From Parasutterella secunda (lineage in GTDB: Bacteria > Pseudomonadota > Gammaproteobacteria > Burkholderiales > Burkholderiaceae_F), in contig NZ_JACJKX010000002.1 of NCBI RefSeq assembly GCF_016901835.1, positions 1 through 64,000 of the forward strand: a stretch of 64,000 bases of DNA, in the 5' to 3' direction. The number at the start of each line of letters is the position of its first letter. Position 1 is the first letter of the stretch. The notes beneath the pieces are model-generated. The model worked only from the letters and a program-made list of their open reading frames with translations. It searched no databases and was not told where the DNA came from. This document shows, in pieces, positions 16,363-19,826 of this stretch. The translations under genes and the position numbers were made by a program.

Positions 16363-17562
16363 CTAAGAAGCTAAGGCTTCAAGACGTTTAATGGCCATAT
16401 TGGCAACCACACTGACGGCAACGGGTAAGACTTCATCATTGAAGTCAAAGTTCGGGTTATGCAAACTCACTGCATGGTCTTCATCTTTAATACCCACGCG
16501 AATGATGCAACCCGGTACACGCTGCAGATATTCGCTGAAGTCTTCAGAACTCATAAAGGGATCAATCACCTTCACGTGATCTTCACCCAACAGTTCACCT
16601 GTCACCTTCAAAGCTGCTTCGGTTTGAGCAGGGGTATTGATGACAGAGCCGCACTCGTGAACATATTCGACTTCAGCTTCACAGCCGTTGGCTTTAGCAA
16701 TGGCAGGCACCATTGTCTTCACGGTTTCTTCAACGAACGCTCGCGTTTCAGGCAAGAAGGTACGAATTGTGCCGCTTAATGTGCATTGAGCCGGAACGAT
16801 GTTGACCGCTTCAAAGCGACCGGCATTAATTGAACAAATGGACAGAACAGCCGTATCGATCGGGTTGATCTTACGGGAAACGATTGTTTGCAAAGCGGTA
16901 ACAATCTGAGCGGCTACCGGAATCGGGTCTACACCCAAATGAGGACGTCCGCCGTGCGTGCCGAACCCCTTAACCGTCACATAGACGCTGTCAGAGGCAG
17001 CCTGCAAGGGACCGGGCTTAAAGCCGATGGTTCCCTTGGGAAGCATCGGTTCGGTATGACCGCCGTAAATTTCTTCAATGCCATACTTTTCCAAAAGACC
17101 GGCTTTGACCAGTGTTTGTGCGCCACGACTGATTTCTTCAGCCGGTTGGAAAATCAAAACAACCTTACCCGGGAAATCGCGATGAGCGGCCAAATAACGA
17201 GCTGTTCCCAATAACCACGTCGTATGACCGTCATGACCGCAGGTATGGGCCAAGCCTTCATTTTGGCTGGCATATTCTTTACCACAATGATCATTCATCG
17301 GCAGGCAGTCCATATCGGCACGAATACCGATCGTATGACCCGGGCGGGTCCCTTCGATGACGGCGATAACCGCCCCTTTGACAAATTCGGTATTGATATC
17401 GGTTACACCCCATTTACGGAGATTTTCGCAAATAACTCCCACCGTCCGATCGGTGTCAAAACCACGTTCGGGATGGCTGTGCAAATCATGACGGATTGCG
17501 GTTAATTCATCGGCCCAGTCGGCAACGCCGGGCAACAATCGATCGGCTAATAAAACTGCCAT
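16363..17562 (-). CDS. M20 family amidohydrolase (HipO/AbgB-like)
   Basis: This 399-residue metallopeptidase-like hydrolase removes an acyl or amino-acid group from amide substrates in the cytoplasm. Conserved features are HDLHSHPE near the N-terminus, GIRADMD, the TCGHDGH metal site with Cys and His ligands, PAEE with the Glu pair, the GGH block, the dimerisation-domain GTHGGRPH, and MSSEDFSEY near the C-terminus. These match the hippuricase/indole-acetyl-amino-acid/aminobenzoyl-glutamate hydrolase group; the true substrate is not evident. The ATG at 17562 has AGGAG 6 nt upstream. It is divergent from xpt with a 313-bp gap and has its own terminator. Confidence 0.9.
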   Translation of the reverse strand: MAVLLADRLLPGVADWADELTAIRHDLHSHPERGFDTDRTVGVICENLRKWGVTDINTEFVKGAVIAVIEGTRPGHTIGIRADMDCLPMNDHCGKEYASQNEGLAHTCGHDGHTTWLLGTARYLAAHRDFPGKVVLIFQPAEEISRGAQTLVKAGLLEKYGIEEIYGGHTEPMLPKGTIGFKPGPLQAASDSVYVTVKGFGTHGGRPHLGVDPIPVAAQIVTALQTIVSRKINPIDTAVLSICSINAGRFEAVNIVPAQCTLSGTIRTFLPETRAFVEETVKTMVPAIAKANGCEAEVEYVHECGSVINTPAQTEAALKVTGELLGEDHVKVIDPFMSSEDFSEYLQRVPGCIIRVGIKDEDHAVSLHNPNFDFNDEVLPVAVSVVANMAIKRLEALAS

Positions 17563-17726
17563 TTTTCTCTCCTAAATAGAGTACGTGTCTGTCACGAATA
17601 AAAAGTTATGCCTTTATGAAAAAGCCCGAGTACGTACCTTTTCAAAGACTATCGCTCACTTTAGCACTCATGGAGGTATTTTCTCCACTAAATTCACACA
17701 CAAAGCAGAGAATTCCTCTTTCGCCG

Positions 17727-17732
17727 TATAAT
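17727..17732 (+). promoter_or_regulatory. Likely -10 box of the xpt-pbuX operon
   Basis: There is an exact TATAAT, but no good -35 hexamer at 16-18 nt upstream, so the promoter may need an activator. A start near 17739 would give a leader of about 137 nt. The 17563-17726 stretch upstream holds the amidohydrolase promoter region and no gene. Confidence 0.5.
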
Positions 17733-17748
17733 TCCGCAAATTTTATTT

Positions 17749-17788
17749 CTCAATAAGATAGCGTAAATTGTCGCTATTCTTCATTGAG
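17749..17788 (+). other. Long hairpin in the xpt leader
   Basis: CTCAAT-AAGA-TAGCG (17749-17763) pairs with CGCTA-TTCTT-C-ATTGAG (17772-17788), about 15 bp with small bulges and an 8-nt loop. It is followed by an A-run rather than a T-run, so it is not a terminator for xpt. It is part of the structured leader. Confidence 0.6.
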
Positions 17789-17820
17789 TTACCGGATAAA
17801 AAAAAATTCCAACTATTGAT

Positions 17821-17875
17821 AAGGAGACGGTCAACAGCCTTTGCCTGAAAAGCGAGGTTTCTGGACCGATATTTT
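17821..17875 (+). promoter_or_regulatory. Candidate translational riboswitch: hairpin bridging the Shine-Dalgarno and start codon of xpt
   Basis: The only strong Shine-Dalgarno (AAGGAG, 17821-17826) lies 49 nt before the ATG, too far to act directly. Between them is a hairpin: an outer stem CGGTC/GACCG (17828-17832 with 17864-17868), an asymmetric internal loop, and an inner stem (17838-17844 with 17852-17857) capped by an A-rich loop. If folded, it leaves exactly 8 unpaired nt between AAGGAG and ATG. The small hairpin with an internal bulge, beside a xanthine phosphoribosyltransferase gene, recalls the xanthine-sensing NMT1-type class, but I could not check its consensus. Confidence 0.5.
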
Positions 17876-18442
17876 ATGAAAGCACTCAAAGAACGCATCC
17901 TAAAGGATGGTAAATGCCTCGATGGCGGTATTCTGAAAGTGGACAATTTCATTAACCATCAGATGGATCCCATTTTGATGAAATCCATGGCCGTGGAATT
18001 TGTCCGTCGCTTTGCAAGTACCGACATCAATAAAATTCTGACGATTGAGGCCAGCGGTATCGCTCCGGCCATTCTGGTCGGCTATCTTTTAGAGTTGCCC
18101 GTTGTGTTTGCCAAAAAGAAAGTGCCGAGCACCATGGACAACATGCTTTCCACCAAGGTGTTCTCCTTTACTAAAAATCGCACCTATGACGTCTGCGTGA
18201 GCAAAGACTATCTGCGTCCCGGTGACAAAGTTCTTTTCATCGATGATTTCCTTGCCAACGGCAACGCTGCCAAAGGCATTCTGGATTTGGTCGAGCAGGC
18301 CGGCGCAGAACTCGTCGGTATGGGCTTTTTGATTGAAAAAGGCTTCCAAGCCGGCGGAAATGAGTTGCGCAAAATGGGCATTCACGTTGAATCCCTCGCC
18401 ATTATTGACAGTCTGGATAACAACAAAATCACGCTTCGCTAA
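17876..18442 (+). CDS. xpt: Xanthine phosphoribosyltransferase
   Basis: The enzyme converts xanthine and PRPP to XMP for GTP salvage in the cytoplasm. The 188-residue protein matches the Bacillus-type Xpt along its length. It starts with the MKALKERI block, carries [10 protein letters not shown], and has the PRPP-binding loop [13 protein letters not shown]. The start is fixed by this family N-terminus even though no Shine-Dalgarno lies at normal distance; see the leader hairpin. It is 10 nt upstream of the permease gene, so the pair forms one uptake-and-salvage operon. Confidence 0.94.
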
Positions 18443-18452
18443 AGGATAAAAA

Positions 18453-19826
18453 GTGGCCGAATTAAATTTCGAAGAACATTCCTACAACGCTAAGTCCTCC
18501 GAGTTGATTTACGGTCTTGAGGATCGTCCCCCTTTAAGGGAAACTCTTTTTGCCGCATTGCAGCACATGCTGGCCATTTTCGTGGCCATCGTCACCCCTC
18601 CCCTTATCATTGCGGGGGCGTTGCAATTGGACCTTGAAACAACTGGCTACCTTGTGTCCATGTCTCTTATGGTTTCCGGTATCGCCACGTTTATTCAGTG
18701 CCGAACCGTGGGCCCCATCGGTTGCGGTCTGCTTTGCATTCAGGGAACCAGCTTTTCATTTATCGGACCGATCATTTCGGCCGGGATGACAGGAGGGCTG
18801 TCCTGCATTTTCGGGGCAACGATTGTTGCCTCCACGGTGGAAATGTTTGTGAGCCGCATTCTTAAGTACACCCGGCGTGTGATTACACCTTTGGTCTCCG
18901 GCATTGTGGTGACCTTGATCGGCATGAGCCTTATTAAAGTGGGCATTATCGCTTGCGGAGGCGGCTACGGAGCCAAGGCTGCGGGCACCTTCGGAAGCTT
19001 CCAACACTTGGGCATTGCAGCTCTTGTTCTGTTTTCTATTATTTTCTTTAACCGCAGCTCCAACCGTTACCTTCGTATGAGTTCCATCGTCATCGGCTTG
19101 GCGATCGGCTACGCAGTCTCCTGGTTCTGCGGTATGGTGGATTTTTCTGCCGTTAAAAGTTACGGCGGTTTCAATATCCCCATTCCCTTTAAGTACGGCA
19201 TTTCTTTTGACTGGGGTGCCATTATCGGCTTAGGTCTTGTTTACCTCATTACAGCTATTGAAGCTTACGGTGATGTAACCGCCAACTCGATGATTTCAGG
19301 ACAACCCTTCCGCGGTGACCGTTTCATGAAGCGTGCTCAAGGCGGCATCCTAGCCGACGGATTCAATTCTATGTTGGCCGGCGTGCTCAATTCTTTCCCG
19401 AATTCAATTTTTGCCCAAAATAACGGCATGATTCAATTAACCGGTGTGGCAAGTCGTTATGTCGGTTACTTTATCGCGGGCTTTTTGGTTCTGCTCGGCC
19501 TCTTCCCTGCCATCGGTCTCGTATTTTCCTTGATGCCTGATCCGGTGTTGGGTGGTGCCACTCTTTTGATGTTCGGTACAGTCGCTGCTGCCGGTATGCG
19601 TATCATTGCCAGCCAGCGTATTGACCGTAAAGCCATTTTAGTAATTGCGTTGAGTTTCTCCTTCGGCTTAAGTGTTGAATTGGTTCCGGAAATTCTTTCG
19701 CAATTCCCCGAAACCCTGAAAAACATCTTCGCTTCGGGCATCACTACGGGCGGTCTGACAGCTATTGTTGCCAACACCTTAATTCACATTGAGGAATATC
19801 AAGACAACAAAGACGAGCAGCTTTAA
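18453..19826 (+). CDS. pbuX: Xanthine permease, NCS2 family
   Basis: This 457-residue inner-membrane transporter of the nucleobase-cation-symport-2 family probably brings in xanthine by proton symport. It shows about 12-14 hydrophobic segments and the NCS2 signature region QGTSFSFIGP near residue 97-106. A conserved acidic helix reads LITAIEAYGD and the following block NGMIQLTGVASR. It starts with GTG at 18453 behind AAGGAT. The coupling to xpt makes xanthine the likely substrate; uric acid is an alternative. A strong terminator follows. Confidence 0.9.
   Translation: MAELNFEEHSYNAKSSELIYGLEDRPPLRETLFAALQHMLAIFVAIVTPPLIIAGALQLDLETTGYLVSMSLMVSGIATFIQCRTVGPIGCGLLCIQGTSFSFIGPIISAGMTGGLSCIFGATIVASTVEMFVSRILKYTRRVITPLVSGIVVTLIGMSLIKVGIIACGGGYGAKAAGTFGSFQHLGIAALVLFSIIFFNRSSNRYLRMSSIVIGLAIGYAVSWFCGMVDFSAVKSYGGFNIPIPFKYGISFDWGAIIGLGLVYLITAIEAYGDVTANSMISGQPFRGDRFMKRAQGGILADGFNSMLAGVLNSFPNSIFAQNNGMIQLTGVASRYVGYFIAGFLVLLGLFPAIGLVFSLMPDPVLGGATLLMFGTVAAAGMRIIASQRIDRKAILVIALSFSFGLSVELVPEILSQFPETLKNIFASGITTGGLTAIVANTLIHIEEYQDNKDEQL

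Follow-up and report, generated by a model that had tools for sequence, protein, structure and literature searches.

Hairpins that join a distant Shine-Dalgarno (SD) sequence to its start codon are best known from two genes of phage T4. In these genes, 38 and 25, the hairpin shortens the SD gap from 22 to 5 nt and from 27 to 11 nt, respectively; mutations that destabilize the structure reduce initiation at such split sites, and close relatives retain the gene 25 hairpin (PMC3014915). A hairpin also interrupts the ribosome binding region of Escherichia coli thrS, where it is accommodated without being unfolded (PMC3936740), whilst the hairpins of the NMT1 xanthine riboswitch carry highly conserved junction nucleotides and act as OFF switches, with sequestration of the ribosome-binding site (RBS) as their common expression platform (PMC7373994). 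Our search of the open-access literature returned no chromosomal case of SD bridging.

The stretch of DNA analysed here (the window, 64,000 nt) comes from a 1.98 Mb Burkholderiales genome (G000) of the GTDB genus Aphodousia, which takes in Parasutterella secunda; its closest relatives with names are P. secunda ET73 and Candidatus Aphodousia species. Its plus strand carries xpt, encoding xanthine phosphoribosyltransferase (17876-18442; TIGR01744, XPRTase, 279 bits against a cut-off of 164), followed as the second gene of the operon by a pbuX-type NCS2 xanthine permease gene (18453-19826; TIGR03173, pbuX, 456 bits against a cut-off of 414); an M20 amidohydrolase gene on the minus strand (16363-17562) is divergent from this operon. 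Because the TIGR01744 match and the alignment with Bacteroidaceae Xpt both begin at residue 1, the protein sequence identifies ATG 17876 as the correct xpt start. The leader consists, in order, of TATAAT, a 15-pair bulged hairpin, AAGGAG, a second hairpin, ATATTTT and the ATG. The initial annotation had noted that AAGGAG lies 49 nt from the start codon and that the hairpin in between, if folded, leaves exactly 8 nt, and the coordinates are as it described them. The distant SD (AAGGAG, 17821-17826) is followed by a hairpin at 17828-17868, with an outer stem CGGTC (17828-17832)/GACCG (17864-17868) and an inner bulged stem (17836-17859), and then by a single-stranded ATATTTT (17869-17875), such that folding reduces the 49 intervening nucleotides to 1 + 7 = 8. 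The 45-nt hairpin piece has a predicted energy of -14.6 kcal/mol (z = -2.1). As in T4 genes 38 and 25, a hairpin between SD and AUG would thus shrink an otherwise unworkable gap.

In isolation, the window site does not exceed chance. Across ~855 kb scanned in G000 and in P. secunda (G001), a hairpin as good was found at 12 of 448 SD-like hexamers, five of these 12 being the two xpt genes counted repeatedly through overlapping hexamers, compared with 41 of 2092 non-SD hexamers (about 2 %), a rate not markedly lower, and 3.9 % of shuffles of the window spacer gave some bridging stem. The remaining SD-like matches all have a usable start directly after the SD, apart from one with an 86-nt gap and an internal GTG; xpt is therefore the only clean bridging case in this sequence. 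What exceeds chance is the comparison with relatives. A distant AAGGAG next to an unrelated hairpin would be unremarkable at the control rate, but a coincidence of this kind can hardly be credited when five orthologues show the same arrangement, their pairing preserved and their letters changed.

Eight of the nine genus genomes have xpt; the gene was not found in any other genus of the family searched. Seven leaders, including that of the window, are readable, the leader in G005 consisting of N. Five of the seven (G000, G001, G002, G008 and G004) share one plan, namely AAGGAG, 0-1 nt, a hairpin, 7-8 nt and the ATG, with total SD-ATG gaps of 49, 46, 36, 46 and 46 nt that become 8, 9, 7, 7 and 8 nt, in the same order, upon folding. 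The corresponding outer stems are CGGTC/GACCG, CGGCG/CGCCG, CGATG/TATCG, CGGTG/CACCG and AGCGC/GCGCT, and the hairpins span 29-41 nt and are often bulged, that of G002 being a simple stem of 11 bp capped by a 7-nt loop. In full-leader folds the outer stem has pair probabilities of 0.94-1.0 in G000, G001 and G002; the value for G004 is about 0.8-1.0 and that for G008 is 0.67. AAGGAG is invariant, whilst gapped alignment of the spacers yields about 45-60 % identity, hardly above unrelated sequence.

A lack of covariation in related xpt leaders had been named beforehand as one of the results that would refute the proposal; covariation is present, in favour of bridging. All 25 of 25 core stem pairs are formed over the five species, with two-sided changes at three core positions (CG/AU, GC/AU/CG and UA/CG/GC) and also at the innermost pair (CG/GC). 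A distant AAGGAG, a hairpin and a folded gap of 7-9 nt recur together with compensatory outer-stem changes. When 3' arms were swapped among species, derangements gave a mean of 14.5 pairs and a maximum of 17, and the true assignment was the only one of 120 to give 25; shifting the 3' partner sideways by 1-3 columns lowered pairing from 100 % to 11-50 %. Dinucleotide shuffles of each leader produced a bridging stem in only 2-6 % of cases, rates that are not strictly independent as the five leaders belong to one genus and are kin by descent. When a covariance model was made from the leaders of three other species, it returned window positions 17821-17878 as its top held-out match and in exact register, with a weak score (19.1 bits, E 0.056). 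The same model missed the held-out leader of G004, which has its stem shifted by about one nucleotide, and detected no further copies of the hairpin in the nine genus genomes.

The spacing of ordinary SDs in the genus gives these gaps their meaning. AAGGAG-type sites peak at 5-10 nt from the ATG, with 72 at 4-10 nt, two at 11-20 nt and almost none at 11-23 nt; the folded gaps of 7-9 nt fall inside this peak in all five species, and the unfolded 36-49 nt lie far outside it. No other SD of at least 4 nt was found near the xpt ATG by scanning G000 and G001, and none is visible on reading G002, G008 and G004. The further claim that no start codon lies at a workable distance from AAGGAG needs qualification, as TTG 17841, 14 nt downstream, opens a 12-codon frame whose TGA stop overlaps the xpt ATG (ATGA); this TTG frame, however, is not conserved in relatives. 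AAGGAG might accordingly serve a short leader ORF, with xpt translated by coupling at the overlapping stop, and the existence of a frame ending in ATGA speaks for such an arrangement. It is nonetheless quite improbable, given that a 14-nt SD-TTG gap is outside the genus peak, that the spacer of G001 contains no ATG, GTG or TTG, that the frames in G008 stop early and that the one in G004 is in frame with xpt. We rejected a leader peptide, whether acting by attenuation or by coupling, and an N-terminal extension alike as shared explanations, no start being conserved and start, frame and length differing or missing in relatives. In G002 (Ca. Aphodousia faecigallinarum; L019:2968-3003), the 5' hairpin arm contains an ATG that follows AAGGAG at 3 nt and shares the xpt frame (MQEIASCIVNT-MKALKE); it possibly provides a species-specific N-terminal extension of Xpt, and it counts against the bridge.

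We consider it probable that the hairpin at 17828-17868 acts constitutively as a structural bridge from SD to AUG of the kind described for T4 genes 38 and 25. The 30S subunit would pair with AAGGAG (17821-17826) whilst the hairpin, still folded, protrudes from the stretch separating the SD helix from the P site, resulting in an SD-to-AUG path of 8 nt rather than 49. The ends of the hairpin keep a set position with respect to SD and ATG and its interior is free, which fits what is needed of an element that folds away a spacer; selection would then act on hairpin shape and end points and not on letters. We infer that the hairpin is accommodated by ribosomes and increases the translation of xpt. 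In contrast to the T4 genes, the xpt case is chromosomal, belongs to a metabolic operon, and has a gap of 36-49 nt and a hairpin of 29-41 nt; moreover, its letters have turned over almost fully between species, making it structure-defined rather than sequence-defined. If correct, bacteria can maintain a gapped RBS by structure alone with nearly all letters changing, and the five leaders form a natural series of gap (36-49 nt) and hairpin (29-41 nt) sizes for probing ribosome accommodation. To gene callers and expression predictors that use only adjacent SDs, such genes would appear to be SD-less.

The hairpin had also been proposed to sense purines as an NMT1-type riboswitch, and this part of the initial annotation was not borne out. 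A purine-sensing element, NMT1-like or new, would bind xanthine or guanine at the bulged hairpin and thereby switch bridging, as might suit genes for xanthine salvage and uptake. The likeness to NMT1 (RF03054) is that both are small bulged hairpins found close to purine genes of Proteobacteria. However, searching the leader with Rfam covariance models, both at the gathering score and with E up to 10, yielded chance-level matches only. RF03054 has no match in the window or its genome, yet the same model matches in four of 120 Burkholderiales genomes; the purine riboswitch model RF00167 matches in none of the nine genus genomes and does so in the Bacillus subtilis and Lactococcus lactis controls. 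Conserved letters would be required for an aptamer or a binding site, and in the sequences compared the hairpin interior has none: it is unalignable over the five species, nucleotides in the style of the conserved NMT1 junction are absent and the G002 hairpin is a plain stem-loop. Neither does the NMT1 scheme of an OFF switch with RBS sequestration apply here. A riboswitch at this position is thus very improbable. An intrinsic terminator was likewise rejected, as on reading the sequences no U-run follows the hairpin in G001, G002 or G004.

A further alternative takes the hairpin to be a separate element, either a protein or RNase site or a thrS-type stem that masks SD and AUG, with its spacing incidental and xpt translated SD-less as in Bacteroidota donors. 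The origin of the operon lends this some weight. Identity to the Bacteroidaceae proteins reaches 86 % for Xpt and about 83 % for the permease, with the same gene order; based on these identities and the shared order, the whole xpt-pbuX operon was most likely acquired horizontally from Bacteroidaceae (Bacteroidota). Bacteroidota rarely use SDs, and xpt of G007 lacks a recognizable one. Furthermore, the SD can pair with its neighbours in G000, less so in the other leaders: the fold predicted for the window leader partly pairs it with UUUU beside the AUG, and this could mask it. SD masking is therefore possible, but the models do not support it as a conserved mechanism, because the pairing partners differ between species, being UUUU next to the ATG in the window and a CU-rich 5' end in G001, G002 and G004. 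A separate element would also leave unexplained the invariant AAGGAG, the start of the stem 0-1 nt after it and the end of the stem 7-8 nt before the ATG, and the interior offers no conserved motif for a protein. As in thrS, the hairpin interrupts a ribosome binding region; the thrS hairpin, however, precedes an SD and AUG at normal spacing and is what autoregulation acts on, whereas no regulator is evident at xpt. On balance we regard a separate element as unlikely.

No comparable SD-hairpin arrangement was present in the Bacteroidaceae donor leaders that were read, nor were relatives found among viral contigs. It is plausible that a foreign operon from an SD-poor phylum was given a host-style signal after transfer. 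The bridge is not essential throughout the genus: in G003 the leader is short, its weak SD (GGTGG) is adjacent to the start and a bridge is missing, G007 also lacks one, and both presumably still express xpt. The xpt tree places G003 together with the bridged G004 (support 0.975), and its deeper branches are weak; a single origin, followed by loss or replacement in G003, is consequently plausible, if unproven.

The 5' end of the leader was mapped from sequence and recurrence in relatives. TATAAT at 17727-17732, on the plus strand within GCCGTATAAT (17723-17732), is the probable -10 element of the xpt-pbuX operon. GCCGTATAAT precedes xpt in five other species as well, and is thus common to the xpt promoters of six, their upstream regions having otherwise diverged; a variant, GGTATAAT, is found in the sixth of the other species. 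It occurs once in contig C2 of G000 and once in contig C1 of G001. Transcription would accordingly start at ~17739. Several relatives have a CU-rich stretch at the first bases of the transcript (17739-17750), reading AUCUCUUCUUU, UUCUCUUUU and UCCUUUUCUUUUCCUU (leaders L018, L019 and L021). In fold models of G001, G002 and G004 the CU-rich 5' end pairs with AAGGAG at a probability of about 0.2-0.6, offering a possible SD-masking alternative. That the bridge is a regulated switch, in which a protein, an sRNA, a ligand or this CU-rich 5' end decides whether SD and AUG are joined, seems doubtful; were it so, xanthine salvage would be controlled by the geometry of the RBS and not by masking.

The 15-bp hairpin reported further upstream is likewise present, at 17749-17788 on the plus strand and shortly behind the presumed transcription start, with 15 pairs, two one-base bulges and an isolated fold of -12.3 kcal/mol (z -3.5, 46-nt piece). 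It is conserved in G001 and G002, where related stems with CAAY..AGATAG show one or more compensatory changes (CAAU..AUUG to CAAC..GUUG), and other hairpins replace it in G008, G004 and G007, that of G004 being more complex. Its role is perhaps protection of the 5' end. In the divergent region, finally, CACTTTAGCACT (17656-17670) is conserved in G000, G001 and G002, and its minus-strand reading, AGTGCTAAAGTG, resembles an extended -10 for the amidohydrolase gene.
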